From Ulota crispa (Eukaryota; Streptophyta; Bryopsida; Orthotrichales; Orthotrichaceae), in contig OY987248.1 in the NCBI GenBank assembly GCA_963920765.1, positions 11,566,539-11,630,538 of the forward strand: a stretch of 64,000 bases of DNA, given 5' to 3'. The position numbers were made by a program, and so were the translations under genes. Of this stretch, positions 700 through 54,282 are shown piece after piece. The first letter of the stretch is position 1; every line of letters starts with the position of its first letter. Under the pieces are notes generated by a model that saw only the letters and a list, made by a program, of their open reading frames with translations, searched no databases and was not told where the DNA came from.

Positions 700-1279
700 A
701 TCTTACTGCATTTGACACCCGCTACCTGAACACCAAAACAATTGGGTAAACAATGAATGCAATTGCCAAACCCTCTCAAACATGTGAGCATGCAAATTGA
801 GAAATTAGAGTTACCTTCTTTTTTTTTCAAGTGGTACATCATTCATTCAATCATGGCATTATCACCTCCTTAAAAGATGGAAGAACAATTTTTTTTAGTT
901 GAACTTTTATTGCACCATTGCTATTTTTTTATGTGTGTTTGCTCCAAGTATTCTAAGAGTCCTATACTTTCAATTTCAAATTCAAGCACCTCCAATTTTT
1001 TTGAATATAGCCTTAGAATGATATAGGTAAAAACAGATCTTCTAACCCAAAATATAAAAAAATCAACATGAAATTCTTGCATTTCATGCTCAAAACACAC
1101 CTTGGGATGTGGCCTTAGCAATTTTGGATGTGGCTTCAGCAATTCCCTAATTATATTAACATAAATTAATTTTGTGGATGATCATGCAAATATGGATGAT
1201 TTTATCCATTTTTACTTTACCTGGGTGCATATCGCTCGACCAACAAAAAGCAAAGAAAATATCCCTAGTTTCTAACTTA
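1..1279. other. AT-rich intergenic stretch, little recognised
   Basis: This stretch is AT-rich and holds no convincing host exon. It contains a homopolymer T run of about 25 bases near 669-693 and a possible LINE remnant at 100-426, listed separately. Open frames such as 921-1142 on the minus strand are short, low in complexity and resemble nothing I know. Confidence 0.5.
100..426 (-). mobile_element. Possible LINE reverse-transcriptase fragment
   Basis: The minus frame reads through 108 codons with a block containing GFGERWRQFLSFLKT, then SRVLLIRGI about 20 residues later. In plant LINE reverse transcriptases a GFG..W...+ helix is followed about 20-30 residues later by an aromatic or aliphatic residue plus RG(V/I)RQG. 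Only the spacing and the RGI match here; the RQG and the catalytic FADD box are absent. A short decayed LINE piece is the best guess, but chance similarity is not excluded. Confidence 0.3.
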
Positions 1280-4200
1280 GGGCCTCTTTATACTAGTAAC
1301 CAAGTACGAGTCCATGTTTATCTATGAGTCGTGGCTCTTGGTCAAGACTAGTAACCAAGAACTACCTTTCCCATCCATTGGTCACCTCCAATGGTGTAAA
1401 GTGAACTTAGACCAGTCCCTTGGAGATTTGGTTATTTATTCTAGTCTTTCCCTTATTTTCTCTTTTTTACTCTCTCCTCTTTCTTTTCTTCTCATTTCTT
1501 AATAAAATTAACATAATTTGGATGCCAAAAAATAAAGAAGGAGACTTGTAAGTTGTAACCAAGTAGATTACAAAAGTTTAATATTGAACTTTAGTCAATA
1601 GTACATAGTGGAAAATACAAAGTAAATAACTATGCAATTATTTAAATGTTTTTACAATGGAATTATTTGGTGCATTTTAACAATAGAATCAAATGTAAGA
1701 AAATATGATATTAAAATCACTCACTGTTACAATAAACACTTCAATAAATTTTAATCATTGTGGTAAAACTAAAATTATGGCAATCAAAATATATTTTTTG
1801 TAGTAAAACAACAGTTCAATAGTAAAATTGTGTTCACAACAATAAAACTATGCTCATAGCCGTAAAACATTAATAAAACAGCATTCTCAATAGTAGATAG
1901 CATTAATGCTTGACAAAAGTAGACCAATCATGAGATGGCTTGGTCACCTTAAAAATTCGGCCAAAGAACCTCTTTAGTCTTGAGAGTGTCTCAACTAGAA
2001 TGTGGGTGACCATAAAACATTATCCACTTCATGACAAGGACAAGGATTCCATATATGTCATATTCTCATCCATTTTTGCTTTTTGTCATTTTCCCTTTTT
2101 TCAGCTAGTGTTAAGTGGACTTAGACCGGCCGGCTTTCCTCCTCCAATCACCACGCCAATCACGTTATAGAAATTGCATTGGTCACTGGCCTTGGTCACT
2201 ACACTAAATATTGCGATTAGGTTGCCTACTTGCCCCACACTAATTTCTCAATGTTTTATACTATATAATTATTTATTGTTGCAACAATAATTTTCATAAA
2301 AAATTATTGCAACAAACCATTTTTAACCCCTAAAGCACTGAGCTCAAATTTTCACCAAAATTGCTCCAAAACTGTATTTTCTAATACAAGTACCAAATTT
2401 TAGAAAAAAAACAATTTTTGACAAATGTAACCATAAGATATTGTACTACGCCAGTATCAAAAGATGCAAAAATAAATTCAAGAGTTTTTACCATGTAGGT
2501 TGTTAGATATTTGAGTTTGAATTGACAAAAAGCCATTTTTTGTCTCTGCAAAAATCTGGACAATTGCACTTTACAAGGTCATATTTGTATGAAAAAAACT
2601 CCAAAATGGTTGTAATTTTTTGGATTTGATCTCTAAAGCATGTTGGTTAGTTGGATACATACTTGAAAATTTTCAAATCATTTGGAATTGTAAAACACAC
2701 AGAAAAACAATAATAAATAAAAGGAAGTAGCACTAGAAGAAAAATGGGATTTTTCAACTGCATTTTGCCAACTACAATACAACTAAGCCTTGAAACAACT
2801 GCAAAACAATTGCAAAATCACATAGCAACTCACTAAAGTATCTCAACAACAAAGGAGGAACACTAACAACAACATAGTTGTATTGTAGTTGTACACACAA
2901 CTACAAAAAACATCTAAACAACTGCTGAGGACAAAAAAAATTATTATCATCAATTTACAATTTGGTTATGGATGTTATCTGTTCATATGGACTCTAGTAA
3001 CCATTTCAATACCACTGCAATTGTTTTTGAGTGGTTCAAGCAAATATTGTACTACTAAAAAACAACTCCATTGCAACTAATGCAGTTGTTCTTACAACTG
3101 CATTTTTAATATGCTGCATTAACATTTGAGGCTGCCATTCTTTTGCTTTGGGCAGCTAATTTTGTTCAAATACTTTTGGTTGGGTTTTAGTGTGAATGCA
3201 TATTGTAGTTGCTGTTGTATGGCAGTTGCAAGCTAGTTGTTTCTGGGATTAGGTGTTACTACAAATCAACAGAAAAACAACTGCACTTGCTACATATTTA
3301 TTTTTAATTTGTTCTTGAATTTCCATCATTACACATATTCCTTGAGATCCCATGTCGAGCTTTGGGGACTGTCAGGTTTAGAAATTATTTTCAAAGTTCA
3401 CTGTGTGAATAGGGCCATTTTTTTATAGTTGAAAAGCAATTGCATTACAGTTGTTTCTAGGTTGGGAATGATTGCTATACAACTATATATTGACTAATAA
3501 ACAATTCACTCCTTTTCTTTCCGCATAATTTGTTTCTTTAAGAACCATGTAATTCCCTTCTTTTACTCTCTCATTTCACTTGATCTGTTGCTACTATCCA
3601 TCATAGTCTTGCTATCAACTCATTTAGCTATTGTAGTTGTGTTGTTGTTGAGAAGTAGTTGACTGTTGTCAGCTTTGAGTCGTTAGTAGGTTTAATGTTT
3701 AGGTTGTTTTATAGTCGCATGCTAGTTACTTCTACTAAATAAACGACTAATTAGCTACTGTTTATCCCGCATTTTCAATGTACAGCTGCTTTTTTTAGGA
3801 TACAACTACCTGACAACTGCAGTCAATTTTTTTATGACAACAAGTAAAAGTTAAACTTTATTTTTGCAATGCAAATTGATAGTTCAAAGTTCAAAAGTTG
3901 ATTGTGATTTGAAAAAAAATCTCAGAATATCATTCTGCTGCATTGATACATAATGTTCCCAAAAAGATCTTGTACAGTCTACTTTGACCTTCGTCAATAT
4001 GACAGGTCTTTGTAACAATTCTTCCCAATCATTGTTGGAGACGTCTCATTCACCTAATCCCCTCCAAACCTTAAATTTGAGTTCTTTACCGTGATCACTT
4101 GGTTGCTTATTCACCGTTCTCAATAGGCACTTCCTCCTCCCTTTGCACACACAATAAGGTTAGTGGAAGTGCTATGCGTGAAAGAGCAATGCTCTTTTTA

Positions 4201-5289
4201 TTTCTCTAGTCCACTGCATTAGTTTTGTTTCTTAAGTGTACCCTACGCGCTATAAGAATGGACAGTTCATAGACTTTTCTATTCTACTTTCACATAGAAA
4301 TGATCAACAATTATTGAATTTGTATTCAATTTAGACTTAGAGTGTCGTTGGCTTTGATCTGTAGAGTACAACTATAGTGTAACTATAAAACAACTCACAC
4401 ATCACTCCAATATGACCTGTCAAATATAACCAACTGCGTAACATTTGACATACAACTACTATACAATTGACAAATGTTGGCAATAGTAAAAATGATTGTT
4501 ATACAACTCAAGAAGTCAGTTGTTCTTGGACTCAAGATATCTGAGACATCTTACTTGTTTTTATTATTTTTCCCCTACTACTAAGCAAATTTGCGTACAA
4601 CATAATTATGAATAGGTAACTCTCTCTTCTATGGTTCCTCCACTATTTGTACTCTTCTTTTGGTGGAATTTGCATGCTCATTCTTGCTTGTGTCAAATGA
4701 AGGATCTAGATTCAGTTTCTACACTTGCAATCAATCTAGCAATTGAAAACTACAAGCACAATAGAGAAGGAGAGAACATACTTACAAATTACTTAAGGAT
4801 GCAAGACTTGTTGAGCTTGCTTCTAAATTTGTGCCATTGCAGGTTGTAAGTGGGGAATTGTAACCAATTTTGGTTTTTTTAATGTAGTTCATGTCACAGT
4901 TCTTGCTACCATGCACTAACTAAGAAATAAATACTAAAGTGCTAGATGGCATCAGTTGAATTTGAGTCATGTAGTTGTTTATTAGTTGTTTTGTAATTGT
5001 TTTTCAGTTGATTTTTAGTGATGTTTTAGTCGTTTTTTGTTGCTACCATGCAATACCTAAGCATTAAATGCTATAGCATTGCTACACGGCTTCAATTGTT
5101 TCTTGGTGGAATAGTTGTTTTTCAGTTGTTCTTGAGTGGTTTTTCAGTTGTTTTTCAGTTAGCTTGTAGTTGTATTACAGTTGTATTAGTCAACGCCCAA
5201 ACCCTGACTACTTCAAGGCGGCGTAGTTCATATCTCATTTTGCACCTGGTCCACAAAAGCTATGGTATTTGGAAATCCTTAGAGAGATG

Positions 5290-5424
5290 TTGAATTGCAT
5301 CATTGAGGTTAGGTTATTTGGTAGTGAGCTTTGGTGTTCATTTGTGGTGTATATGAGTGCTTAGAACGGATTGATTTGCATCAATGAACTTAGGTTACTT
5401 GGTATTGAGCTTTGGATTTAACTT
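5290..5424. repeat. Left remnant of ~82 bp tandem array in outer CACTA
   Basis: Two diverged units containing GAGCTTTGG at a spacing of about 80 bases. They match the array that resumes at 13726, so the inner CACTA element landed inside this array. Confidence 0.7.
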
Positions 5425-7233
5425 CACTATAAGAAACCTGGGTTTTTTTAGATGTCCAAAAACTGCCAATTATACGTTTAATTTGATGTCAAACGCGTCC
5501 GCTTGCATGTCAAATTTTTTGCGTTAACCTTGATTAGCAAAAAACATCAAAAATTTCAGGAAAACAAGGGCACATTTTTGGTGAATGTCAACATTAACAT
5601 GGCTCCAAGGGGGAAGAAAAAACGGACCCATGGGGTAGATGGCCAGTGCCCGCCCTAGAAAACCTCATCCAGTAACTTCTTTTTTTCATCCGGTGAAAAT
5701 CTGACATCGACTTTGACATGTACGCATTCCAAAATCTTATGTGGCGTGTCAAAGCGGGAGTAAGAGTGACCAATTCTAACATCAAGAATAACGTCAATAA
5801 GGACATCAAACTCAATGTTATCCTACCATTGAAAACATCTACAACATTACAATCTATGTCTACATTGATGTGCAATGTCACATGGCCCTATTTTGCTAGA
5901 TGTTCCGCATTACGCAAGTAAGGACATGTTCAAGGTTGGACTTTAGGGTTGTGTGTCCGGTTCAATGTCCTCATTGACGTACTTTTGCTCACCCAAGGCA
6001 TTAAAGGTAACATATATGATTACATTTGATTTTCTTGGAATTGTAAAATTTTGCAACAAGGTGTTGACTTAGGGTTATCTTGTTGACATTTGGATTGACG
6101 TGCACGTGTAATCTTGACATTCATTGCTACAACGTCGGGGTTCATATGGATGTTAAGTTTGTCCGCTCTGGCATTCTAGGTGACGGCAAGCAAATCCAAT
6201 GCCCTACTAAGCATGTACATTCTGGCACGGTATTGTTGAGCAGAGTGCTATAATTGGCACGTTCCTTGACATAGGATGTTCTCCATGATGGCCTTCCAGA
6301 TGTAACATAAATCACCGTGAATGTTCTAATTGACAACCACAAAAGTGCGCCATGTTCTAGGGGTATATAAATACATGTCCATGAGCATGTAAATTCATGC
6401 ATTCTATTGTTATAAAAACATGGATTCATTGACACTACATGTACAAGTCCCTATACATCTTGATATCCTTTGGAGTGACATAAGCGTTCAATTGGATGTA
6501 TTTTTAATTTTAGGAAACACTGATCTGTGTGCGTAGCACGTTTACGTGATGTTGTTTGCCATGCACGATGTAGCCCTTGCTTGTCCGTCATAATGTCTCT
6601 AGGACATCAAATTTGAGGCTTGGGGTTTCAGCTGGTTCAGGGTTATTATGCAACGACAGCTTTGTTTGACATCTTTCCATGCTTCCAAGTTGTTTGAATG
6701 AATGCTAGTGGTTTAGGGTGGTGTTCATAAATGCCTACCATTCAACTCATATTTGCCTACATGAATGTCTTTAATGACACATCAAGAACGTGAGCTACCA
6801 AACTCAACAGCTCTATGATCATCCACTTAGTTCTAGTCCTGCCCTCCACAACACCTACTTTGATGCTTCCTTGGACATCTACTGTGTCCATAGAGGTATT
6901 TCATTAAACATGCTTCTTTTAGTACTAAGGGGAATGGACGTCCCTTAGACAACTGGATCAACGTAGTACCAGGTGTTTCATTGACCACATTGCAATGTCT
7001 TCAACAACATTCTCAACATGCATTATAATCACTTTCATCCTACCATAATCAACAAGGGGTTCTGACCAATAGTGAAAGTCATGCAAGCATCATTACCATG
7101 AGATAAAGTGTAATCCAATGCACACTTCAAGGTTCCATGTGTATATAAAGTAACTTGGCACTAAACCCCAGCTTCCACATGTAAAGCTAAGCTTCCTCTC
7201 TCACTAGAATAAATCTAATGTTGTGCCGAATGC

Positions 7234-7840
7234 TTATAGCAGCGTGTGTTCTCCATGAAATCCCAGTCCATCCTAATTTCAAAATATTCACAACTCTGGC
7301 CCATCCAAGTCACCAAATATGATTAAACATTACCACATAACCCTGATTACAACCATACATGAAACAAAAATGAAACAAAAAAGTTTAATAGCCTCGTACC
7401 TTCCCACGACATCCCTATTTATCCCAATTTCAAAATATTGACAAGGCTGGTCCACCCAAATCACCAAACATGATTAAACATTACCTACAAAACTTTGTTT
7501 ATACCAAACATGAACCAAAAAATGAAAAAAAGGCCTTATAGCCCCGTGGCTTCTCCACGACATTCCTGTCCATTCCAATTTCAAAAAATTCACAGCTCTG
7601 GCCATCCAATCACCAAACACGATTAAACATTATCCACAAAACTCTGATAATACCAAACATGAACCAAAAAATGAAATAAAGGAGGCCATATAGCCCCGGG
7701 CCTTCCCCATGAAATCCATGTACATTCCAATTTCAAAAAATTCACAACTCTAGCCATCCAATCACCAAACACGATTAAACATCACCCACAAAACTCTAAT
7801 TACAACCAAACATGAACCAAAAAATGACAACACAGCCCCT
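7234..7840. repeat. Left ~152 bp tandem array of inner CACTA (about 4 units)
   Basis: Units each carry CATGAAACAAAAA or CATGAACCAAAAAATGA near 7345, 7508, 7659 and 7810, followed by a TAGCCCCG..CTTCCCACGACATCC block and CACAACTCTGG. The spacing is about 151-163 bases. The array is inverted relative to the larger array at 9870-11545. Confidence 0.8.
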
Positions 7841-9220
7841 AAAATTTCTTGCCTAAACCTAGGAGATCTCAATCTCAATTCGAGAATTTGTGCACTTCTA
7901 GCCAAACCCTAAACCAGAACACGATTGTGAAAACTCCATACAACTAGATCTCAACTATACTTAGAATTGGAAATCCATGAGTTGTATGAATTTGGAACTT
8001 GTCCACCCGGACCACAGGTCACCGCCCTTGTTGCAATCAATTCAAAGCCCTCAATCTACACCAATTGTTGAGCAACCTTTGACATCCACAGAAACGTAGA
8101 GCCCTGTTCAACTAAACATGTGTGCGTCCTGTCAAACATCTCACTAACAATTTCCAAAAGAGCAGGAGAATTGAAAGTAGTACCTGCCATCACTGGGCTC
8201 CACTGATACCTCTCATGCAACCTCTTGCTTGTCTGTCTTGCCATCGGACTTGTGCTTTGTAACTCAAACCACCTCCCCTTTGCGCGGCTTCAGACGTTGA
8301 GGTATCACCTCCACCGGCAACTTTGCCTTCCCTCTTGAGCTTGATGCTTCTGCGTCCAACTGTGCCTTTGATCACGTATCTTGAGCTTGTCTGCACCGCC
8401 GCTGCTCCTCCCAAGGAGATTCGTCTAGACCATCGTCAATCTCAATTGGCTTTGTTTGTGGCAATCGTGGCCGCTTCCAAGAGCTAGGTGTCTTATCCAT
8501 CCTTGCTAGCCTGCAAGACCACCACTGGAACTACAAGAACAACTATTAGTACACTTGTGTACAACAAAAGAAACCAACACTGATGAAGAGAAATTGGAAT
8601 TGAGGCAACAAACCTTTGCGTTGACGTATACAAGATTGGCCTCAATGCGTTTTCGTCGCTTTGTCGTCTGCCACAGCTCCTCGATACAGCAAGCTCATCA
8701 TCAGATCCACGCTCATTAAAACTAACAGCCAACGTCATACCAAATGCATAAATGGCGGCACGGTGGACACCTACCACCAAGGGCGGGCCCTATCGTCGTG
8801 AATGAATACTTGATGAAGATTTGTGGCCTTCGTGGCCTCTCGAGTCCCTCGTCGCCTCTGTCTCCAAGCTCCCGCCTCTATCGGCCCTGGGCCTCTGCTG
8901 ATCGCCTGCCCTCCACTCCTCGTCGCCTCCCTGCCTCCGCTCTGACCAGGAGCCGCCACTTCTCCACCTCTGTCTTCTCTCTGGTTGCCGGAGGAGCATC
9001 GCACCGCTTGTGCAATTCATGATTGCGTGAGTGGAGCCGCAGAAGACAAAGGAGCCATTGGTGCAGCTAGCACCACGAAATTTGTGAACGCTTCAAGTGC
9101 AGCGCTGCTAACCTCAAATTCTATAGGCGCGTCTCCTCTAATTGCAAAAACCCTATCGTCCTTGTAATGCAATGCATTGACGTTCTTCAGACGCATTGTG
9201 AAACTTCACATTTGCAATTC
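7841..9220. other. Central region of inner CACTA, unassigned
   Basis: The base composition is visibly richer in GC here (for example 8700-9060) than in the rest of the element. Overlapping open frames occur on both strands (8190-8414 minus, 8744-9022 plus, 8790-9020 minus), but all are short, arginine/serine-rich and unlike any family I recognise. A captured host-gene fragment or the decayed remains of an element-encoded gene are both possible. Confidence 0.4.
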
Positions 9221-9869
9221 TCTTGTCAAGCATGACTTTGAAACCCAAATACCTATTTCCCGCGTTGTGTGACCTTTTGAGACTTTTGAAGGAAGCCTCT
9301 CAGAAGGATCATTGTGTGCATTTAGTTGGCCACATGGGGTCATCCAAGTATATCCACTCCTTGAAATTCATGATTACAATAGTATGTCTTGTTGCAAAAT
9401 GTCTCTGGAGACATAAAAAGAGACGTCAATACGTTAGTAGTAACGTGAATGTCAACAATTCAGCCCATGATGATATAGTAAGCATTGTAAGGAACGTTAC
9501 ACATGCCATAGTCAATGTCGCCCAAACATGTAGGTCAATGCATCTAGATCCAAGTTAGTTTCAGTGTGGTCATTGTGCATTGCCCTCACTATATACAATT
9601 TTCCACAACTGCCCAGTGCTCGCTGGCTGATTGTAATGAATATAATAATCACCTTGTACTAGGTATTGGTTGAACTTGATGGTTACAGATGACTGATACG
9701 AGTGAAACAAACATGTTTGTTTCTTGACGCAGTTTTTTGGAATTCTACTGACTCTTGTGTTAACAATGACATGAGGTAGATTACAAACATGTAAATTATG
9801 TTGTCAAACAGATGACATGGATGTCATACTAGACATCAATTATTACATAAAAACGTGGAAAATTCCATC

Positions 9870-11545
9870 TTTGGTGCTTTGGATGGGCCAAAGTTGTGAA
9901 TATTCTGAAATTGGGATGGACAGGGATGTCAAGGGGAAGCCAAGAGGCTATAAGCTATCTTTTTTCATTTTTTGGTTCATACTTGGTATAATCAAAGTTC
10001 TGTGGTAATGTTTAATCGTGTTTGGTGATTTGGATGGGCTGAGTTGTGAATATTGTGAAATTAGAATGGACAAGGATGCATGAGGAAACCATGGGGCTAT
10101 ATGGCCCTTTTTTTAATTTCTTGGTTCATGTTTGGTATTATCAGAGTTATGTGGTAATGTTTAATCATGTTTGGTGATTTGGACAAGCTAGAGTTGTGAA
10201 TATTCCAAAATTGGGATGGACAGGGACGTTGGGGGGAAGCCATGGGGCTACAAGGCCTTTTCTTTTCATTTTTTGGTTCATCTATGGTATAATCAGAGTT
10301 ATGTGGTAATGTTTAATTGTGCTTAGTAATTGGATGGGCCAGAGTTGTGAATGTTTTGAAAATGGGATGGACGGGGATGTAGTGGGAAGGCACGGGGCTA
10401 TTAAACTTGTTTTTTTTTCATTTTCTGGTTCATGTTTGGTATTATCAGAGTTTTGTGGGTAATGTTTAATCATGCTTGGTGATTTGGATGGGCCAGAGTT
10501 GTGAATTTTTTGAAATTGGGATGGACAGGGATTTCATGGAGAAGAAATGGGGCAATAAGCCTTTTTTTGTTTTCATTTTTTGGTTCATGTTTGGTTGTAA
10601 TCAGAGTCTTGTTGGTAATGTGTAATTGAGATTGGTGATTTGGATGGGCTAGCCTTGTCAATATTTTGAAATTGGGATGGACAAGGATGTTGTGGGAAGG
10701 CACGGGGCTATTAAACTTGGTTTTTTTTCATTTTTTTAGTTTATGTATGGTTGTAATCAGGGTTATGTGGTAATGTTTAATCATGTTTGGTGATTTGGAT
10801 GGACCGACTTGTGAATATTTTGAAATTGGAATGGACAAGGACGCTTGGGGAAGCCATGGGACTCTAAGGCGTTTTTCTATTTTATTTTTTGTTCATGTTT
10901 GGTATAATCACAATTTTGTGGGTAATGATTAATCATGTTTGGTGATTTGGATGGGCTAGAGTTGTGAATATTTTGAAATTGGAGTGGACAGGGATGCGTA
11001 GGGAAGCCATGAGGCTATAGGGCCCTTTATTTTTTCATCTTTTGGTTCATGTATGGTATTATCATAGTTATGTGGTAACGTTTAATCATGTTTGGTGATT
11101 TGAATGGGCCAGAGTTGTGAGCATTTCAAAATTGGGATGGATAGGGATGTCGGGGGAAGCCATGGGGCTATAAGGCCCCTTTTTTTCATTTTTTGGTTCA
11201 TGTTTGGTTGTAATCAGAGTTATGTGGTAATGTTTAATTGTGTTTGGTGAATGGATGGCCTAGACTTGTCAATATTTCGAAATCGGGATGGACAAGGATC
11301 ACCTAGGAAGGCATGGGGCTATAAGGTGTTGTTATTTTATTTTTGGGTTCATGTTTGGTTTAGTCAGTGTTTTATGATTAATTTTTAATACTGTTTCGTG
11401 ATTTGGATGGGCCGGAGTTGTGAATATTTCAAAATTGGGGTGGACAGGGATGTCGTGGGGAAGGCACGGGGCTATAAGGCGGCTTTTTTTTTTTTTGGGT
11501 TCATGTTTGGTTGTAATCAAAGTTTTGTGGTAAAGGTACCAAGAT
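9870..11545. repeat. Right ~152 bp tandem array of inner CACTA (about 11 units)
   Basis: A GTTCATG(T/A)(T/A)TGGT word recurs near 9976, 10126, 10277, 10429, 10584, 10739, 10892, 11046, 11197, 11346 and 11500, a period of about 150-155 bases. Each unit also holds TTGGATGGGCC.GAGTTGTGAAT and GGGATGGACAGGGATG. The short minus-strand reading frames here repeat the same peptide by virtue of the DNA repeat and are not genes. Confidence 0.85.
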
Positions 11546-11691
11546 GAGTTGTGCCACTTTTTGATTACAAGCTGGCGCTTGTTGTGCAAACATGGAATGC
11601 GTGCTCACTGGCTTCTCGTGACACTTACTTGCGCAACTTTTGCCATGAGGAATGCAAGTACTTGAAGCATAATCTTGGGTTGGGTGTTATT

Positions 11692-12035
11692 TAACCGCTA
11701 AAGGACCATTGTCCCTTCAAGGGACAAGTTGGACTTTGGGCATGTACCTATGGCCAAACTATTTCTTGTGATTTTTTGAAACTTTTATTGAAGGTGGGGA
11801 ATTCAAAGATCTACATGGGCATGTATTTTTTTCTTCATTCCAACATTTGATGAAGAAGTCATGCATGAATTTGTGAAAATATAGGGAGGGCTGTCCGTCC
11901 GGGCAACCCAAAAAATTCTTTAAAAATTACTTTTTAAAGAATTTGAAATTTGAAACTAGTTTTTTAGATTTTTATATGGGTGAGCTGCTTGGAATAATTC
12001 AATTTCAATCAAAGAGATGAATGTTATGACAAGTT
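11692..12035. mobile_element. Truncated piggyBac-type MITE inside inner CACTA
   Basis: It starts TTAACCGCTAAAGGACCATT and contains the GTCCC..GGGAC hairpin, the TGAAGGTGGGGAATTC block and the TTCATTCCAACATTTGATGAAGAAG block seen near one end of the ~930 bp TTAA family (compare 25184-25510). The match fades near 12035 and no second TTAA end is found, so only about a third of the element remains. Confidence 0.7.
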
Positions 12036-13725
12036 TTCCATTGCATTGTCAGCAAGTATTCTTGTCTAATGATGCGCAAAGAAACGGATGGAAGGTTGTT
12101 TGTAGAACAAACGTGCGATGGCGACGTTCAACAGTGCATGAAGAGCGACATGACCCTACCATCATCAACGTTGGTAATGATGTTGACTTTGAAGGCCTAG
12201 CACCCTTTGCAATGGAAACAAAACCCATAAGAAGACTAGACACTAGAGGTGGTACCTATGTCGTACCCACGTCAGAGGGACCAGAAGGAGTAGCCACAAC
12301 ACATGAGGAGTGATACATGTCGTGGCCCTAGACTACATGACTAGGACATTGTTTGAAGCACGTGTTGTATGACATCCCTAATGTACTAGTAGATGTTCAG
12401 GCCCACGTCAATTGCAGAAAATGAGGTATTGCGTACCATTTGCATAATTTGTGGGATGTTCTAGTGAGCACCCACTTGTTGGCCCTGCATGGTAACTTGG
12501 AATTTTCTACATCAAAGATTGCGTTTGAGAAAATGTTCATGTGGACATTGTTAATAGCGTGGTGCATGTCCACGCAGATGATGCATGTATGATTTACCTG
12601 AAATGGTCCATTGCAAATCAGTTGTTTTCAAAAGTTGAAATTGCATTCAGTAGGATGTCAATGTGAACGTCACCCTTACTATGGAGTGGCATGGTTAAAG
12701 TGATGTCTATCTAAATGTCCCTCATGACGTTAGCATTTATAAGGTCCGTGACTCTTGTGATGGGCAATAATTGCCCTTAATCCTCCATAGTAACTTGTAC
12801 AAAGTAATCCAATATTAATTTGAGCCTCAGTTGCCAGTGTGGCATGCATGTTTAGATTGATGTCATGACGGACATGGTTATAGACGCGTGGAATGCAGCT
12901 AATCATAATTTTTAAAAATGGTGGACTTTTAACCTCACTATGCATAGTAACTCATGGAAATTTATTGTCAATGAAATTGACCCACCTTGTCAAAGTGTCA
13001 GTCACGTTATTTTTGACGTCCGAGCGGACGTCGTAGCAAACATGCAAAAATTCCCAAAATTAGAATTATTTGATGGTTTGCGTTTTCACCTATATGTGCT
13101 CTGTAACTTTGGAAAAGTTACCCGTGGTAAACGCAACCTCCAATGCCAGCCTAGTAGTTATGTTTAGTTTGACATCAAAGAAAACATCTTTGCAGACGTC
13201 TAAATTTCTAGGGACAATTTTTTTACATTGGTCAGCAATTTTATCCTTTATGTAAATAGTTAACTCCAGGAAGTTACCCTTGGTGAAACTGACCCCCCAC
13301 TGTCAAAGTTACAATCATATTCATCACAATGTCAAGCCTGATGTGGGAACAAACGTTTGCATTTCCCTAGGTTGTAATTTGTACAGTGGATAGCTTTTTT
13401 ACCAAAATATGGAGGGGTAAACTGTGGAGAGTGACCCATAGTGAAAAAAAATGTGCCCTTGTTAGACTAGTAAGCACGTTGATTTTTATGTCACAATGGA
13501 CATTTGTGAAGACATCCATGTTTGGGTAGACATTGTTGTTGTTTTTCTTGACATTAGGGCTACTATTCTTGACAACCACACGTTCAGTAGATGTTATGAA
13601 ATCTTGACATCAAAATTTTTTGGATTTTGAAAGCCAATTGATGTCAAAATTATGTTAGAATAAACGCATCTAACAAGGGGTTGTTTTTGCATGGATGTCA
13701 AAAAAAACGTGGGTTTCTTATAGTG

Positions 13726-14930
13726 CTTGTGGTGTGTAAGAAGACTTAGAGGAGGCTGGTTTGCATCAGTGAAGTTTAGTTTGTTTAACATTGAGATTTG
13801 GTATTGATTTAAGGGTGATTAGAGGAGTTTAGAAGGGCCAATTTGCTTCATTGAAGGTAAATTGCTTCCCATTGAGCTTTGATGTTGATATTAGGGTATT
13901 TAGAAGAGTGTAGAAGGGTTGATTTTTGTAGTAGAAGTTAGATTGATTTGCATTGAGCTTTGTTGTTGCTTTTAGGGTGTTTAGAGAAGTTGAAAAGAGC
14001 CAATTTGCTTCATTGAAGGTAAGTTGCTTGTCATTGAGCTTTGATATTGATATTAGGGTTTTAAGAGGTGTTTAGAAGGGCTGATTTTTAAAGTAGAAGT
14101 TAGGTTGTTTTGCATTGAGCTTTGTTGTTGCATTTAGGGTGTTTAGAGGAGTTCCAATGGGATGATTTTTATAGTACAAGTTAGGGTGTTTAGAGGAGTT
14201 CCAATGGGATGATTTTTATAGTACAAGTTAGGGTGTTTAACATTGAGATTTGTGGTTGCTTTTATGGTGTTTAAAGGTGTTTAGAAGGGCCAGTTTGCTT
14301 CATTGAAGGTAAGTTGCTTGTCATTAAGCTTTGATGTTGGTATTAGGGTTTTTAGAAGAGTTTAAAGGGCTGATTTTTATAGTAGAAGTTAGATTGATTT
14401 GCATTGAGCTTTGTTGTTGCATATAGGGTGTTTAGAGGAGTTCCAATGGGCTGATTTTTGTAGCATATAGTAGAAGTTAGGGTGTTTAACATTGAGCTTT
14501 GATGTTGATATTAGGGTGTTTAGAGGTGTTTAGAAGGGCCAATTGCTTCATTGAAGGTAAGTTGCTTGTCAATGAGCTTTGATGTTAATATTAGGGCTTT
14601 TAGAAGAATTTAAAGGGCTAATTTTTTTAGTAGAAGTTAGGTTGTTTAACATTGAGATTTGTGGTTGCTTTTATGGTGTTTAGAGGAGTTCAAAAGAACC
14701 AATTTAGCCTCATTGAAGGTAAATTGTTTGCCATTGAGCTTTGATGTTGATATTATGGTGTTTAGAGGTGTTTAGAAGGGCCCATTTCTATAGTTGAACT
14801 TAGGTTGTTTAACATTGAGATTTGGTGTTCATTTTATGGTGTTTAGAGGAGTTTAGAAGAGCTTATATGTATCATTGAAGTTAGGTTGCTTGTCATTGGT
14901 TTCTTATGTTTAGATATGATTTTTGTAGCG
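13726..14930. repeat. ~82 bp tandem array in outer CACTA (about 14 units)
   Basis: The words TTGAGCTTTG(T/A)TGTTG, GGTGTTTAGAGGAGTT and AGTAGAAGTTAG recur from 13786 to 14895 at a spacing of roughly 72-120 bases. Units differ by substitutions and small indels. One stretch around 14140-14230 is duplicated almost exactly. The array has no lasting reading frame. Confidence 0.8.
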
Positions 14931-16618
14931 GTTTAGAAGGACTGAAGACCAACACTTATTAGAAGGTGAAGCATGCAGAGATTGGCTGCATACTGTGTAT
15001 TGCCCTAAACTGTATTGTAATGTAATCATGTAGCAGTAGAGAAGCCCAATGTGCAACTACATTGCAATTGGCCCTTGTATTAGGTATTTTGCCCTATTCA
15101 TGTACAATTGAATCCTTACTGCATTATACTATTCAATCACTAATGTACAACTAATGTACAACTTCTTTGCTAGTGCTGTGCAACTAGATTACAACTTTGT
15201 ACCAAGTGTTTTATAATCTAATGATGACTAGAATGAGTTGTGTTTATGATTAACTTGCAACTCTATTGTAACTAGATTACAACTAAGTTACAATAAGAAT
15301 GCGACTAAAATACAACTTTGTCCCTACTAGGTGAGAACTGCAATGCAACTGACCAGTGCTAATAGAGTCACTGAAGCCACTGAGATGCAATTGTCGTGCA
15401 ACTGCATAGTTGACAATTTGGCATGTAAGTTGTGAGGTCAACTTAGTTACAACTAAATTGCAACTATCACTGTTAATCTACTATACATTGCAATTGTACT
15501 ATAGTACCAAAAAAGAGTGAAGAGTCACTTATGTCCTGAACTTGACTATAAATTGACTGTATGACAAGTGAAAAACGATTAATGTACAACTGAACTTTTA
15601 GGTGAACCATTTTTCTACTAAAATAATATAAGCAACTGCAAAGTGACTACTTTACAACTAAATTACAACTGCTTTACAACTGTAAGGGATACGTGTCATT
15701 GTGGATTATCAATTTTACATTTCATGAAATTGCCTAAATATGACCAAAACCTCTAAAAATATGACAAGTGACACTTGGTCATTTGTGTGTCAGATGTGCA
15801 TTAATGGAGACATTGGGATTAGAGAGAAAGATGTCTTCTAAACAAAGAAGAAAGAAGGGCAGAGGCGGCAGGTTATTACCAAAATTTAGGAGGGGCAATG
15901 GATGAAAAGGTCGCAGTTGTTTTTGAGTAGATGGCAAATGTGACAAGTTCACTATCACTAGCATGCAACTGTGGTCGACTAAAATACAACTGCAGTCCAT
16001 CTAGTTGTATGTGAGTAGTTTCATGCCATAAACTACTAAAATGTAGTCGTTAATTGCAATCGTTTTTTCCCTCTTTTTTACTAGTATAGAGAATGATTCA
16101 AACCTCTAAATTGTTAAGAACTTAATTATGGAAATGAAAAATTCCAATCCCAATGGTTGTAATGTTGTGATAAACAATCCACATCTTTTGGTTTTATCTT
16201 TTTTCTAAAATATTGAAAGTTGAGTAAGTTAATGGACTTCAAAGTTTGATTTAGGGTAGAGAATCCATAACTGCATACAAATAAAATCTACTCATAATTT
16301 TCATCTCATTGATTAGAATGGAATGATTCAAAGCTTCCCAAGTTTGTATAAATCTAAAGAACCAATTTAAAAAAACTAAGTTCAAAAAATGTGATTTTTA
16401 AAGAAGTTTTTTGGCTATCCCCCGACCAAAGAAAACTACAAATCATGCAATAATTTTTGAACCATGAAGTCAAAAGTTATGAAAATTGTTGGGCCTTGAA
16501 GCTACTCCTTGGACACATCATGTGTAAAAATTTCAAAGAAAAAAAAAGAAAACCCCATTAATAATGAGCTGCCCAAAATTGCTATGTTGCCAAAAAAGGG
16601 TGTTCAGTGCTTTAGGGG

Positions 16619-17271
16619 TTAACCCCTCACCGCCCACAGTATTTTTGAGTATCTCAAAATTTGCTTGAAAGTGAACAAAATGCTGGCATTTTGATCAATC
16701 TTATCAATTTTCTCTAAAGCGCAATTGTACAAATTCAAAGTAGATATGTTATAGATCACATAGAAAAAAAAATCACAACAATATCACTTGTGGATTGAAA
16801 GATTATAATGTTTGATCATGAGGGTGTTGAAATTGCAAAAGTGATTTGAAGTCTTTCAATCCTCTTTATGCATCTCAAACCTAAAATTGAGGGTACCAAA
16901 AATATATAAGTATGTAAAGTATAACATGCATAACCCCAATCAATTTACGGCTTCTCAAAATCTATTATACAGTTTTTTTAATTGAATTTTTAATGTAATT
17001 TTTTCTCCAAGTTCTAGTGTACTTGAAGCTCATTTCCAAGAGCCTTCAACACTAGAAAGTAAAGATTTACAATGGACACCCTTGCACAAAATCTTGAATA
17101 GACAAATCACTTTAATTCATTTTCAAAATCAGACTCCTAATGCTAAAACTAGACTTCAATAGGAATTTAAAAATAATAATAATCACTAAAAAAATCTTGA
17201 AAAAAGGCCGCTGAGCTCTAAATTATATTCAGAGAGGCCCAATTTGGGCCCCTTGGGCGGTGAGGGGTTAA
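16619..17271. mobile_element. piggyBac-type MITE with CCCCTCACCGCCCA ends
   Basis: TTAA + CCCCTCACCGCCCA at 16619 and TGGGCGGTGAGGGG + TTAA ending at 17271 form a perfect 14 bp inverted repeat with TTAA on both sides. The 653 bp element shares its left TTAA with the right end of the 2323-16622 element. Its TIR differs from the CCCCTAAAG family, so it is another TTAA subfamily. Non-coding. Confidence 0.85.
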
Positions 17272-17414
17272 AGGACTTGACAACAACAATAATGTTGCAA
17301 GAAAAGAAACTGGCTACATCCAAGTAGTAAACCATGTGAAATCTAAGTATTTAGAGAGTTGTATATGCCTCCAAGTGCCCAATCAATGAGGCATGAGAAA
17401 ATTCATCATGGTAA

Positions 17415-17784
17415 GAGCATCTCCACTGGTTGACTCTAGCTATGCAGATAGAGAGGAGTTTGGTTATTATTCACTAGTTGGACCTCCCCTCAGCAACCTT
17501 GCCAAGCAGGGTTCCAAGGACAGGAAACTCGCGGGCTTGAGAAGTATTATAGCGTGCTGAAGTTTTGATTTGTCCAAATTCCGCATGTGATGACACAATG
17601 TTGGGAAGCAGCTATCGATTAAGACCCCTCTTATTGGGCCAAAATTCCTGCTGCTATAGCCTAGCGTGTTTGTATCATGTGTCATTGGTGGAGATTTGGA
17701 CACTAGCACAACCACATTAGCCTCCCTAGACCCTGGCAATTGGCTCTAGCAAGTATGTATTTGCCTAGTTCAATGGAGATGCTC
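17415..17784. mobile_element. MITE with GAGCATCTCCA ends
   Basis: GAGCATCTCCACTGG at 17415 and TGGAGATGCTC ending at 17784 are inverted, with TAA before and TCA after (a probable decayed TAA duplication). It splits the TA-flanked element at 2202-17834 at the point where the uninterrupted copy reads GGTAAGGCAACC (complement). The 90-codon minus frame inside (17467-17739) has no recognisable content. It is probably PIF/Harbinger-like. Confidence 0.65.
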
Positions 17785-17836
17785 TCACACAACCCAACCT
17801 AATTGTCAAGGCAACCTAAATGCAATATTCAATGTA

Positions 17837-19060
17837 CACCAAATAGTGCATTTAGGTTGCCTCAACAATTAAGTTGCCTTACCTTGGAAAATTGCCTCAT
17901 GACCCACCACTTGCCCTCTTGGAAGTGCATGCAACTCTTTACATATTTAGATTTCACTTGATTTACAACTTGAATATTACTAGTTTATCTTTCTACAAAT
18001 TTGTAGTACTTGCCAAGTCTTTCAACTCCTAAAGGATCATGGCCTTTATTTTGTCAAAAGACACTCAAAACTGCCACTTCTATGGCAAAGAGTTTTTTTT
18101 TTTGAAGATTGGTCTTTTTTCATATTTAACCATAGGATCTTGTACTAGATTTGTATAAGGATGTGTTGTTCAAAACATAAAAAATTTGACCGCATAGATT
18201 GCAAGATATTTGCGTTTAAAGTGTAAAAAACAAGCTTTTTTGCACCTTGCACAATTAGATTATTTGACTATGAACTTTTTTAACTTAAAATTTTTGCACC
18301 ATGGAGTTCTGAGGTTTATTTTTTTATGGTGGGGAATTGAGTTGAGAATCTTTGGAAAAAAACCAAAACAAAAAATTATTAAATTTCATTCTTAAAAAAA
18401 CATTAAATAGAAGAAGGTTTAAGATTTAACAAAATCTTACATTGTTAATAACCTTGCAATGGAATTGAATCACAATAATTCCAATGGTGAGATTGTTCTA
18501 GCAAGCAATCTTCACCCTTTCCGATAGGTTTTTTTGTGAAAATGTTAAATTTGCATTCAAAAATGAAGTTTATAAGTTATTTTTTCAGAGCAAACTCACC
18601 CCTACTTGCAAACTAAAACTTCTCATAACTTTCATCTCATCTATCAGAATTGAATGATTCAATGCTCCCCACTTCTATATAAGTCTAAAGAACCTATTTC
18701 AAAAAAAAAAAAAAAAATGAAATTTTTAAAGAATTTTTTGGCTGCCCAGGGACCAGCATTTTCTAGATTTTCATACATAACTTCTTCAATTAATGTCGGA
18801 ATGAAGAAAAAATTACACTCCCACGTAGATCTTTGAATTCTTCACCTTCAGTAAAAGTTTCAAAAAATCACGCAAAGTAGTTTAACCATTGGTACATGCC
18901 CAAAATCCCATTTGTCCCGCAAAGGGACAATGGTCCTTTAGGAGTTAAAAATGATTTGCTACAATAACTATTACTAAAAATTACTTTAGCAGCAGTAAGT
19001 ATTTAAATAGTGTGAAATGTCAAGAAATTAGTATGGATAACCTAAATGCACTATTTGGTG
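17837..19060. mobile_element. Second TA-flanked MITE (mariner/Stowaway-like), with a nested TTAA element
   Basis: The ends CACCAAATAGTGCATTTAGG (17837) and CCTAAATGCACTATTTGGTG (to 19060) are an exact 20 bp inverted repeat with TA on both sides; the left TA (17835-17836) is shared with the neighbouring copy. It contains the TTAA element at 18021-18948. Subtracting that gives about 300 bp, matching the intact 291 bp family member at 22907-23197. Confidence 0.8.
18021..18948. mobile_element. piggyBac-type MITE (~930 bp family)
   Basis: The left end reads CTCCTAAAGGATCATGG after TTCA (a mutated TTAA). The right end reads TGGTCCTTTAGGAG followed by TTAA (18945-18948). Interior blocks (TTTGTCCCGCAAAGGGAC hairpin, TTCTTCATTC-type block, AATTCCCCACC-like block) match the copy at 57289-58217. 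Length is 928 bp. Confidence 0.8.
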
Positions 19061-19302
19061 TAGTGTAAAGAGGCCCTTAGCGCGGGATTAGGGTAGGCCG
19101 TGGCTGTAGCACGAGCACCTGCCCTGCCGTCAGTTGATATTCGAATAACATGACATGTTCTATTCTATATTGCAATTACAGTCCCACAAATTCTGGAACC
19201 GTAGGGACTAGGGAGGGGACTCATCAATGAATCGCCAAGCATGTCGGAAATATCATCTGCATGCCCTGCAAATAACGAGATCAATCTATTTTGCAGCACT
19301 GG

Positions 19303-19713
19303 TAAGGTAGGAGTACCTTAATCGGACACTTTTGTTACATCAATTCACTGATAGTTTGTATGGAGATTCTGAGAATGTAGAAGGGATAGGAAACTTGCAA
19401 AGAGTGTAGGAAAATTGTTTTTGGAATTTTTTGAGATCCTATGAATAAATTATAAATTGTTGGACATAACTCCCTAAACACACCTATTGTGGACACTAGA
19501 CCCCCATTGAATTAGTTGTATTGAAATGCAAATGTGACATCAAAAAGATCCAATCACATGCTGCCAACTATACAATTTGAGTTCCAATACTCAATTATGG
19601 TGAACAACTTTAGTTGACTTGCATGTCTGATTTGGGTAACTGATGGATTTGAAACAGGCTCATTTATAGGTGTCCAAGAACAAATCCTGTCCATTTAAGG
19701 TGAACCTACCTTA
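19303..19713. mobile_element. MITE with TAAGGTAGG ends
   Basis: TAAGGTAGGAGTACCTTAA at 19303 is mirrored by TTAAGGTGAACCTACCTTA ending at 19713. The interior block around 19430-19510 (AATAAATTATAAATTGTTGG and a CCTATTGTGGACACTAGA run) is the reverse complement of 22720-22790, so this is the same family as 22535-23204 in the opposite orientation. No clear target duplication was found. Confidence 0.6.
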
Positions 19714-19723
19714 TTGTAAGTTA

Positions 19724-19882
19724 GGGCCTGCTTCCATGCTCAGCCGGTGGGGGGTGGGTTTATTAATAGCCGATCAATTATCGGTCAGATCCAAGTTTTG
19801 TTTTGTGAAGCTCCGATCTGACCGATAATTGGTCGGCTATTTATAAATCCACCCTCCACTGCCTAAGCATGGAAGGAGGCCC
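19724..19882. mobile_element. Short Tourist-like MITE (159 bp), TTA duplication
   Basis: GGGCCTGCTTCCATGC at 19724 and GCATGGAAGGAGGCCC ending at 19882 are inverted repeats. TTA lies at 19721-19723 and again at 19883-19885. The interior is nearly palindromic (GCCGATCAATTATCGGTCAG against CTGACCGATAATTGGTCGGC), so the whole element could fold into one hairpin, as expected for a PIF/Harbinger-type MITE and a possible small-RNA source. Confidence 0.85.
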
Positions 19883-19905
19883 TTAGTCACTGATGAGAAA
19901 ATTTA

Positions 19906-20748
19906 GGGCCTCTTCACACTACGGCCCACAAGTTGAGAGGTTGTGGGATTGAATGACCAAAGTTTGTTGATGCCGGAACATCACAATTTTTTGTGCAAGA
20001 AAACATTATTTATATTCCACCAACACAATTATTTTACCCACATAGTCATTATTCATGCAATTTTTATATATACTTTTGTTTTTACCCACGCAATTTTGTT
20101 ACATTTTTTGTTATTTATGCACACATTTTTTTACACGTACAATTTTTTACCCATACTTTTTTTTCACATACAAATTTTTACCTATGCAGATTTTTACCTG
20201 TGCAATATTTTTACCAAACCAATTTTTTACCCATGCAAGTTTATCTACCCATAGGATAAAAAGACCGCTATAAAAGGATTGCCAAACGGGTAAATCATAT
20301 TCTCACACAGTAGTTTGAACAGATGAAGAAGTAACTTGTATGTTTGGAAAATTGAGGGACAATCCCTATTTTCAGATTTCTTGTGTTGTTCTACTATAGA
20401 CAACCTCTCCTTCATTCTAGGGTAGGAGGTTTGAGATGCTGGTTTGTAAATTCTTAAAACTAGTTGTTTTGAGCAAACTAGAAAAGTGAAAGTAAAAAAT
20501 GGAAGAATTTACAAAAGTAGACATTGCTACTTGTTTTTCTCAAAACGCTTTTTGAAATGCCCATTTATTTCTATGCAGCTTGGCCTTGGTAGGCCCAAAA
20601 AATGAGCCAAAATAGGTAATAGAATAATGTTTTGAAATTTGTGGCTAGATGTAGCGTAAAGCTTTTAAAAGTTAAACCCAAAATTTGAACTTTTGGCAAT
20701 GAACTTCAATGGCCTCTTTACTTAAACAACCATAGTGTGAAGCCTCCC
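19906..20748. mobile_element. Probable MITE with GGGCCTCTTCACACTA end
   Basis: TTA (19903-19905) precedes GGGCCTCTTCACACTACGG. A good inverted partner, CCATAGTGTGAAGCCTCCC, ends near 20748. An alternative right end at 21050 (GGCCC followed by TTA) would give a TTA duplication but pairs less well. It carries the CCATGCAA minisatellite at 20030-20255. Boundaries are uncertain. Confidence 0.45.
20030..20255. repeat. Degenerate TTTTTACCCATGCAA minisatellite
   Basis: The motif TTTTTACC(C/T)(A/G)TGCAA or close variants (TTTTTACCCACGCAA, TTTTTACACGTACAA) recurs about 12 times at a spacing of 15-20 bases. Three overlapping plus-strand open frames in this stretch are products of the repeat and not genes. 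Confidence 0.7.
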
Positions 20749-22534: not shown

Positions 22535-23204
22535 TAAGGTAGAAGAACCTAAAATTGACACTAGCCATTTAGTGACATCTAAAAATAAACCTAAAGTTGC
22601 GCGCTCTTGCACCCAAACAAGACATGCAAGTTAACATAAGGGAACATAAATTGTGTAAGTGGTGGTTTAGGATTGGATGTGATATGGTCTTTTTGTTGTC
22701 GCTTTTGCGGGGTTCTAGTGTTCACAATAGGTCAGTCTAGGGAGTAACCTTCAACAACTTGTAATTTATTCATACGATCTTAGAAAACTCCAAAATCAAT
22801 TTTGGTTGCATCTGTGACCATTTCCTAACAACCGCACGGCATTCAATTCTTGAAAGACTCTCAAAATCACAAAATCTAAAGTAAGTGTCACTTTTAGGTT
22901 CTTCTACATTGAATATTGCATTTAGGTTGCCTTGACAATTAGGTTGCCTTACCTTGGTAAGTTACCTCACAACTCATTACTTGACCATTTGGAGGCGCAT
23001 GCAACACACTAAATATTTAGATTTCAGATGGTTTATGATTTGGAAGCCATGAGTTTGTTTTTTTGCAACTTCATTGTTGTCTGAAAATGGTTTATTGCAA
23101 TAAATTTTTATGAAAAACACTGTAGCAACACTAAATATTTATATAGCTTGAAATGTAGAGAAATTAGTGTGGGGCAACCTAAATGCAATATTCAGTGTAC
23201 CTTA
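22535..23204. mobile_element. MITE with TAAGGTAGAAGAACC ends, interrupted at its right TIR
   Basis: The left end reads TAAGGTAGAAGAACCTAAAA with TTGACACT following. The right end reads AGTGTCACTTTTAGGTTCTT then CTA at 22904-22906, is broken there by the TA-flanked element 22907-23197, and finishes with CCTTA at 23200-23204. Rejoined, the two ends are complementary over about 27 bases. The length without the insert is about 377 bp, near the 411 bp of its inverted relative at 19303-19713. Confidence 0.7.
22907..23197. mobile_element. Intact TA-flanked MITE (mariner/Stowaway-like), reference copy
   Basis: CATTGAATATTGCATTTAGG at 22907 and CCTAAATGCAATATTCAGTG ending at 23197 are inverted, with TA on both sides (22905-22906 and 23198-23199). 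At 291 bp it is uninterrupted and serves as the template for recognising the split copies at 2202-17834 and 17837-19060. Confidence 0.85.
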
Positions 23205-24264: not shown

Positions 24265-24675
24265 TTAACCCCTAAACGACACAGCGTGTCGCTGTGGTCA
24301 AAATAGGGTATTTTTCCCGTATTGAGGGGTGTTGTTGTTTTGGGTTTTGTTTGGATTTTTGAGGGTTGTGTATTGTTGTTTGTCTCCACCTTTTGTGATG
24401 CTTAGCATGTTTTTGCGATTGTTTTTCTGATTTTGCAAAGCGTTTGTATTGGAGGTGGGCTATGAATACGTAGCTAGAGCGTATCTGTGACTTACGGAAC
24501 TTTGCGGTGGATTCCTAAAATGAACACGTTGCCAAAGTGCCAAGAGCAAGCGCTCTTGTCTAACCGCTCCGATCCACAATCCGTGACAAGAAAGGAATGA
24601 AAATCAGATTTGAGTCACCATAGAATTATTATATGACCAGGATATTATGGTTCCATGTGGTCGTTTAAGGGTTAA
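24265..24675. mobile_element. 411 bp piggyBac-type MITE related to the 8.1 kb piggyBac element
   Basis: TTAA + CCCCTAAACGACACAGCGTG at 24265 and GTGGTCGTTTAAGGG + TTAA ending at 24675. The subterminal pattern (GCGTGTCGCTGTGGTC, then a run to GTATTGAGG) resembles that of the large element at 47781 (GCGTGCCACTATGGCC, then a run to GTATTCGGAGG), and both right ends read GTGG(TC/TT)...TTTAAGGGTTAA. It could be an internally deleted derivative. Non-coding. Confidence 0.75.
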
Positions 24676-25183: not shown

Positions 25184-26119
25184 TTAACCCCTAAAGGCCT
25201 AGTTGTCCCCGGGGACAAATGGATCACAGGCATGTACATATAGCTAATTTAGTTTTTGTGATTTTTTAAAACTTTAATTGAAGGTGGAGAATTCCAAGAC
25301 CTACACAAGTATTTATTTTTTTCTTCATTTTGACATTTGACAAAGAAGTTATGCAAAATTTTCTAATACCCAGGGGAGGGAGAGCAATCTGGGCAGCCCA
25401 AAAGCTTCTTAAAAATTTGTATTTTCTAAAAGTAGAAATCTGAAATTGGTTCTTTAGATTTTTTCATATGTGGGAAGCTTTGAATTATTCAACTTCAATC
25501 GATGAGATGAAAGTTAGGAGATGTGTTAGTTTGTGAACAGTTATGGATTCTCTACTCTAACATAAACTTTGATTTCCTTTATTTTCCACAATTTTCAATA
25601 TTTTGGAAAAAAACTAAACTTGAGGAAGTGGATTGTTTATTACAACATTATAACCGTTGGGATTTGCATTTTTCATTTTAATAATTAAATTCTTAACAAT
25701 TTAGTGATTTGACTCATTCTCTACTTCTTTTTACCTACTATTTTTTTTCATGTGTTGTATAGTTCCAATTGATTTGAAAATTCTCCCACACATACCTAAC
25801 TTGGTCTTCTACACCAAAAAAATAAACCTCAATTTTGTGTAGAGTAATTTTTTTCATGTAAGAGTGGTCAAAGGCTTCTGAAATTTACTAGCAGCAAGGA
25901 AATAAACCTTTTCCCTTCACCTCATATGTCAATATCTCCCTCCTCTCCATCTAGAAAGACTTGATTTTTTCCCACAAGTACCTCTTCTAGTCTAAGGCAA
26001 GATCCTATGGTTGGATTTGCAAAACAAACTTTATTTCCTACTTTTCTACTCATTCCTCCCAAAGTGGCAGTTAATGGTGACTTTCATTGGAAAAAAGGGC
26101 TTGGGCCTTTAGGGGTTAA
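25184..26119. mobile_element. Complete ~930 bp family piggyBac-type MITE
   Basis: TTAA + CCCCTAAAGGCCTAGTTG at 25184 and TTGGGCCTTTAGGGG + TTAA ending at 26119. Length 936 bp, with no nested insertion. The subterminal hairpin GTCCCCGGGGAC lies just inside the left end. It is the best uninterrupted copy for comparing 2323-16622, 18021-18948, 21063-22344 and 57289-58217. Confidence 0.88.
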
Positions 26120-47311: not shown

Positions 47312-47784
47312 ATATTTCCCCCCTATGAGCATCGAGCAGCGGTTTTTTTATTGACAAATATTTGCCTAAATCTTACCTCAAAATCCTTGTGACTAACACA
47401 ACAATAAGAGAAATTAGGCTCAAAAAGTGGATGAAATGGTCATATGTCTCCTTGAGCAAGCACACTACTCACCAGCTTTTGGATGAAAAAAAGCTTATAT
47501 TAGTAAACTTGTTGGATGAACATGCAAACATACGACTTGCTATATTTTGGATGAAAATAGATTATGTTAGTAAAACTGTTGGATGAACGTGCACACATCA
47601 TTCATTCCTCAAATTTTTCTTACCTACGCGCTTTCTAGGTGCCAATCGCTCTACCTTGTCAAATATATAAAAAAAGCAGTGCCTCCCGCAAGCTCTTTGC
47701 GCCATCTTTTGCGCGGCAGGTTAAAGAACAGCCTTACATGTGTAAGAAATGTTGGCACAAGTACGTACAAGTATGAGATGTTAA

Positions 47785-51204: not shown

Positions 51205-51215
51205 GGGGATGACTA

Positions 51216-54200: not shown

Positions 54201-54282
54201 AAGAACGCAATGGTTCTGCGGGGGTTGTAGTTCCACTTTCATGTGTGTGGGTGCCTATTATTTCCAGGTACACACACAGCCG
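51216..54282 (+). pseudogene. piggyBac-type DDE transposase, inactivated
   Basis: The family cuts and pastes DNA at TTAA with a DDD-type RNase H fold. Recognisable blocks, in order, include YFLKFWPRHMLSSIVRETNK (about 51310-51370) and SKEELLAWFGVLILMGLKDL (about 51694-51753). Next comes the first catalytic region, LTVDEIMVPHKG, within 51818-52084. The second acid is in HTVITDNFSNGVELFMRLLD (about 53535-53595). The third region is MRGIDVVDQ, followed by KWWQRILMFILDSSYLNAYI (about 53875-54003). Last is a C-terminal Cys-rich tail, TCVVCLK…FCGGCS…MC (about 54180-54250). All three acidic positions are kept. Two TAG stops stand where the family has Trp (after RRLY at about 51775, and after FSIKI at 52082-52084). 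Blocks are separated by 1.4 kb at 52110-53520, either an intron or an insertion. Confidence 0.85.

Follow-up and report, generated by a model that had tools for sequence, protein, structure and literature searches.

The window, a stretch of 64,000 nucleotides of the Ulota crispa genome (C7:11566539-11630538; genome of 274.8 Mb in 157 contigs), carries at 1280-19076 a stack of transposons inserted one inside another, five layers deep (Table 1). The outermost layer is a TTA-flanked element, T. It holds two TA-flanked elements, X and Y, and these hold three TTAA-flanked elements, A, B, and C. CACTA-1 lies in A, and CACTA-2 lies in CACTA-1. An initial annotation, made from the sequence alone, had described a nested stack of this kind with six successive insertions. 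Its two TA elements and its TTAA elements were all present. X also carries a GAGCATCTCC-type miniature inverted-repeat transposable element (MITE) beyond those listed there, and B and A have one right-hand TTAA in common. In the genome searches reported below, only the top-ranked first-look candidates were aligned, and the number scored is given with the result.

Table 1. Coordinates of the stacked elements and of the piggyBac-coding element in the window (TIR, terminal inverted repeat; TSD, target-site duplication)
Feature	Position	Strand	Flanks and remarks
T, left part of outer TTA-flanked element	1280-2201	+	TTA 1277-1279; TIR GGGCCTCTTTA..
X, first TA-flanked element with all inserts	2202-17834	+	TA 2200-2201 and 17835-17836; relative without inserts at 22907-23197
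A, TTAA element with insert	2327-16618	+	TTAA 2323-2326 and 16619-16622; TIR CCCCTAAAGCACTGA
CACTA-1 with insert, inside A	2731-16086	+	TSD TAG 2728-2730 and 16087-16089
CACTA-2, inside CACTA-1	5425-13725	+	TSD CTT 5422-5424 and 13726-13728
C-family fragment inside CACTA-2	11691-12046	+	truncated at 12035-12046 (deletion of about 5.4 kb)
B, TTAA element using the right TTAA of A	16623-17267	+	other TTAA 17268-17271; TIR CCCCTCACCGCCC
GAGCATCTCC-type MITE in X	17416-17794 (edges approximate)	.	relative without it at 22907-23197
Y, second TA-flanked element, holds C	17837-19060	-	middle TA common with X; other TA 19061-19062
C, TTAA element in Y	18026-18944	+	TCAA 18022-18025, TTAA 18945-18948
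T, right end	19063-19076	+	GTGTAAAGAGGCCC; TTA 19077-19079
piggyBac-coding element outside the stack	47781-55909	+	TTAA-bounded; TIR CCCTTAAA..; broken transposase
Transposase piece	51776-52081	+	PF13843 9.9e-13
Transposase piece	53521-54006	+	PF13843 2.9e-21; piggyBat 1e-6; Trichoplusia ni piggyBac only 0.092

The outer boundaries at 1280 and 19076, proposed earlier with TTA flanks, were borne out at both ends. The genome search with T gave 44 rows, self included (best 40 of 158 candidates). Removal of X and Y left 936 bases. The TTA on both sides in the window is a 3-base TNA duplication, as in PIF/Harbinger; elsewhere, single sides read TAA or TCA in L003, L004, and L006, and the two sides of the L005 copy differ (TGA and TAA). 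T, a putative PIF/Harbinger element, resembles Tourist-like MITEs in this target and in its GGGCC.. terminal repeat; it differs in its length of 936 bp. Directly outside the stack, an inverted repeat occupies 19716-19890, with 83-base arms at 83% and 9 bases between them.

X and Y lie in tandem at a TA in the right terminal repeat of T, mutually inverted, with one TA between them. Collapsed Y was 301 bp and aligned over positions 1-301 to L003 and L063 at 89%, and end to end to a tandem pair of copies in L008, at 75% and 70%. X without A and B was about 309 bp and aligned to its relative elsewhere in the window. TA was found on both sides of X, Y, the L003 and L063 copies, both L008 copies, and the copy at 22907, as in Tc1/mariner; the L004 copy has no TA on the right. 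The TA duplication, the length of about 300 bp, and the lack of coding sequence are like those of Stowaway-like Tc1/mariner MITEs, a putative class for X and Y. The terminal repeat is unlike theirs, reading CACCAAATAGTG in X and Y and CTCCCTCC in Stowaway.

The arrangement of T with TA elements was also seen at other loci. In L003, a TA element flanked by CACTA and TAGCT directly adjoins the point where the T alignment ends. L008:873-1513 is a T copy whose left terminal repeat contains a tandem TA-element pair, flanked by CATTA and TAGTG, the mirror of X and Y. One layer further in, A/B and C entered the same site, TTAAAGGACTTG in X and TTGAAAGACTTG on the reverse strand of Y. T for the TA elements, and X and Y for the TTAA elements, look like preferred targets, with small counts.

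Collapsed A was 933 bp, or 941 bp counting both TTAAs. A gave 1694 first-look candidates in the genome, of which the best 40 were scored. When 78 loci and the rest of the window were searched with collapsed A, 22 of the 92 listed alignments ran end to end, and in 36 locus ids the match extended 60 bases or more to either side of the joint (L002 and L025 being the same copy). Both ends were recognised in 25 of 30 A loci, with TTAA on both sides in 17 of the 25. B has relatives in L022, L029, and L058, and its TTAA on both sides in the window is the target duplication of piggyBac.

C gave 8123 first-look candidates (best 40 scored). The flanks of the window copy are unequal, TCAA and TTAA. Among 30 copies, the window's own included, the length was 913-928 bases with a median of 922, and TTAA was intact on both sides in 19; at most one base differed from TTAA on the left in 28 and on the right in 29. 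Variant flanks matched each other in L057 (TTAG/TTAG) and L062 (ATAA/ATAA), which fits a four-base duplication. A and C both show TTAA duplications, as piggyBac does (17/25 and 19/30 copies). The 17-base C-type end TTAACCCCTAAAGGACC occurred exactly 8,154 times genome-wide (4072 + 4082, about 30 per Mb), and its reversed control gave 0 + 0. Within the first 100 listed places of this end, 17 neighbouring pairs faced inward within 1.5 kb, 13 of them spanning 903-963 bases, and one faced outward.

Both CACTA elements, with their TAG and CTT target duplications, stood as first described, and genome searches placed their edges at the proposed bases. With a 100-base flank included in the CACTA-1 query, 30 of 41 non-self rows started within 3 bases of 2731 and no listed row started more than 7 bases ahead of it (best 40 of 1351). 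For CACTA-2, 33 non-self rows reached the left end, none starting more than 6 bases before 5425 (49 rows; best 40 of 104). Six CACTA-1 copies matched the 100-base flank of CACTA-2 at 95-97% and ended at the insertion point (base 100), and each had the left end of CACTA-1 2.7-3.6 kb upstream. The 81-base tandem array of CACTA-1, with copies at 5293, 5374, and 13841, stayed in phase on the two sides of CACTA-2 to within one base. CACTA-1 without CACTA-2 was 5,052 bases. CACTA..TAGTG ends with a 3-base duplication were complete in CACTA-2; the 3' end of CACTA-1 is degraded and reads ..ACTAGTA, not TAGTG. The CACTA terminus and the 3-base duplications are those of CACTA (En/Spm) elements. The two elements differ from these in that no stop-to-stop frame of 120 amino acids was found within 1000-20000, where no search for the transposase family was made, and CACTA-2 differs further by an internal deletion.

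Collapsing the inserts gave back sites that are empty in other genomic copies of T, Y, A, and CACTA-1. For five levels, the reading as nested insertions that duplicated their targets and whose empty sites can be restored holds good. The initial annotation had expected reconstructed copies of about 936, 315-320, 941, and 5,052 bp that align end to end without gaps at the joints. The lengths of T, A (with both TTAAs), and CACTA-1 were recovered, and those of Y and X fell short of 315-320 bp. Collapsed Y and collapsed A aligned across their joints, and the T joint GCCTTGGTCACTAGTGTAAAGAGGCCC agreed with L004 and with L006 at all of 27 bases; in L005, the last 19 bases matched, with gaps ahead of them.

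The superfamily behind the TTAA layer, for which the initial annotation gave no name, was approached through transposases. A PF13843 profile search of the genome gave 120 rows with a best value of 1.3e-73 (best 116 of 528 candidates). An open frame of L074 matched piggyBat at 2.4e-25 and piggyBac at 6.4e-24 by sequence. Coding copies on C3 (L080/L069, 5027 bp) and C10 (L081/L078, 5026 bp) were about 90% identical, and their homology starts at TTAA followed by CCCCTCATCGCC (TTCA in L081) and ends within one base of GGCAATGAAGGG followed by TTAA. The window itself holds a second coding element (Table 1). At its 47781 boundary, three of four non-self rows began there and one six bases earlier; of the two non-self rows at 55909, one ended there and one three bases later. 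Another copy of it, at C8:5837461-5847763, is 10.3 kb and matches at both ends at 87%. Coding elements bounded by TTAA form two lineages, one of them inside this window. The pattern TTAACCCTTCAYYGCC was found at 51 places, compared with 0 for the reversed control; three of these were right ends of coding loci, and none was a left end. PF13843 had no match in 14 control genomes. The NAC domain (PF02365) had none there either, so these controls are uninformative on plants. In the U. crispa genome, NAC gave 25 exon matches, counted as about 13 loci (all 28 candidates scored); flowering plants usually have about a hundred. The low number suggests a non-flowering land plant and speaks against a grass, a host that the MITE types might bring to mind.

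piggyBac is best known from animals. The elements described here resemble piggyBac of Trichoplusia ni and piggyBat of Myotis in their TTAA duplications, in terminal repeats starting with CCC, and in a transposase of the PF13843 type in which the DE, DN, and G(V/I)D motifs align. They differ in having a land plant as host, in coding elements of 5-10 kb, and in putative non-coding members, about 920 bp long and TTAA-flanked, that number in the thousands.

The ends of the stacked elements were compared with those of the coding elements. The right end of B agreed with the coding end of L080 at 15 of 17 bases (0 of 2000 shuffles as good), and its left end with L081 at 13 of 17 (1 of 2000 shuffles). 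A, B, C, and parts of T and of the CACTA elements were also used as blastn queries against the coding loci. B alone matched, over 95 bases at 72% in one flank of L069 and, weakly, in L072. The PF13843-type transposase itself was found in the coding elements, and B is connected to it only via the common terminal repeat. The assignment of B to piggyBac is well supported by these terminal matches. Eight other TTAA ends of the window agreed with coding ends at 11-14 of 17 bases; for the TTAA elements at 24265-24675, 25184-26119, and 56050-56976 the agreement was 12-14 of 17. For A and C, TTAA, the CC(C/T) TAAA start, and these intermediates suggest the same membership. The TTAA layer probably points to piggyBac, with a weak link for A and C. 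The three TTAA elements given by position above and a fourth at 57289-58217 have CCC(C/T)TAAA ends, and the TTAA at 58214-58217 is common to two neighbouring ends.

From these results the following history can be proposed. T, a Tourist-like TTA element, was struck at a TA of its right terminal repeat by the tandem elements X and Y. Short non-coding TTAA elements next entered the corresponding TTAA of both, A and B in X and C in Y. CACTA-1 then inserted into A, and CACTA-2 into CACTA-1, arriving with an older TTAA fragment already on board. The TTAA elements most likely came from the genome's own piggyBac population and were probably mobilised in trans by transposases encoded elsewhere. The probability of this history as a whole, with piggyBac as the most likely source of the TTAA elements and movement in trans, is put at about 0.78.

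Several observations weigh against it. Stops interrupt 110 of 120 PF13843 rows, and in some cases one copy accounts for several rows. L074/L079 yielded a right end only, and no left end was found for the L074 element. The boundary tests at 47781 and 55909 rest on 4 and 2 non-self rows. The eight bridging ends and those at 47781 and 55909 had been selected for carrying CCC(C/T)T beside TTAA, which favours their match to the coding ends. The ends of A, C, and the C-family fragment agreed with coding ends at only 9-11 of 17 bases, a level that 22 to 131 of 2000 shuffles reached. Neither A nor C had a blastn match in the coding loci, and scans of L069-L078 gave no convincing C- or A-type end beside a transposase.

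These observations leave some room for a history with the same nesting in which B alone is piggyBac and A and C belong to another TTAA-cutting superfamily. Kolobok, for example, also uses TTAA. The terminal repeats of A and C are only weakly like the coding ones, and no interior is held in common, as this alternative would have it. Against it, the CCCTTAAA repeat sits on a piggyBac-coding element, and the motif-selected TTAA elements of the window reach 12-14 of 17 bases. A different superfamily for A and C is considered unlikely.

The inner elements could also have been passengers of a composite that jumped as a unit, and the nesting would then give no order of arrival at this locus. The C-family fragment in CACTA-2 is exactly such a passenger. 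Against this, no CACTA-1 or CACTA-2 match listed outside the window has the flank seen here. A second copy of the A/CACTA-1 or CACTA-1/CACTA-2 composite was not found among the matches listed (best 40 of 1351 and of 104), and nothing among them points to joint travel of inner and outer elements. Composite transposition is regarded as quite improbable for the five main levels.

The initial annotation had placed the TTAA fragment as the sixth and last insertion. The fragment begins at a clean TTAA end, as a separate insertion would. A query of 11300-12600 gave 93 rows (best 40 of 5408 candidates), in which the fragment occurred together with its left neighbour at 14 places outside the window. 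In 12 of these 14, the right-hand sequence follows 5,385-5,735 bases further on; 16 paired right-hand pieces were counted, four of them without a left partner among the matches listed. The simplest reading is that the fragment is part of the CACTA-2 family, and that about 5.4 kb is missing from the window copy across 12035-12046, with larger deletions in some other copies. At two of the four places without a left partner, C1:38261379 and C2:7700453, the tandem array comes within about 130 bases of the right-hand piece, so that the fragment is absent. They could be taken in favour of a late insertion; most simply, they arose by deletions of their own. The fragment is older than the jump of CACTA-2 into CACTA-1. 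The strict six-step order fails because other CACTA-2 copies have the fragment at the same place, and a sixth, final insertion is very improbable. The five remaining insertion events stand, and the interpretation first given for the locus is partly supported. Relatives of CACTA-2 were concentrated on contig C11 (8 of 14 left pieces), where the listed places all lie below 5.9 Mb; C11 is possibly a small repeat-rich or sex chromosome.

The joining of unrelated repeats by assembly error is the least credible explanation: the region is repetitive throughout, but a separate target duplication marks every one of the five main levels, and the CACTA-1 array stays in phase across CACTA-2.

Frames that are likely host genes lie at 31767-36576 (ABC transporter, one piece matching PF01061) and at 60865-61930 (AAA ATPase, one piece matching PF00004). 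A PDR-like transporter frame had no match among solved structures at 1e-10.

The presence of piggyBac in plants is not new per se, because it is already mentioned in passing, without detail in the passages considered, in PMC2874221, PMC10140906, and PMC8086355; PMC10813416 mentions it likewise in its abstract. Traces labelled PiggyBac are tabulated among the repeats of Oryza coarctata (PMC10576809) and of Ceratopteris (PMC6890710). According to PMC2528002 (2008), five superfamilies had been described in plants. A survey of MITEs in 207 plant genomes (PMC12550479) lists, in the sections considered, five superfamilies and one special group. A length limit of 800 bp was set in one of its tools, and the word TTAA is absent from its main text; TTAA elements of about 920 bp could have escaped this survey for these reasons. 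No description of a plant piggyBac MITE family was found in titles and abstract beginnings among the matches listed from the open-licence PMC literature.

Nested transposons are ordinary, and the piggyBac population is the notable part of this locus. On balance, piggyBac appears to be a major maker of short non-coding transposons in this plant, with elements that land repeatedly on each other's TTAA junctions, and to be a superfamily absent from the plant MITE classification considered here. The five insertion events, fixed by empty sites, provide a relative order that can be checked. If the membership of A and C is confirmed, this plant would be a natural case for studying piggyBac amplification in a plant nucleus.

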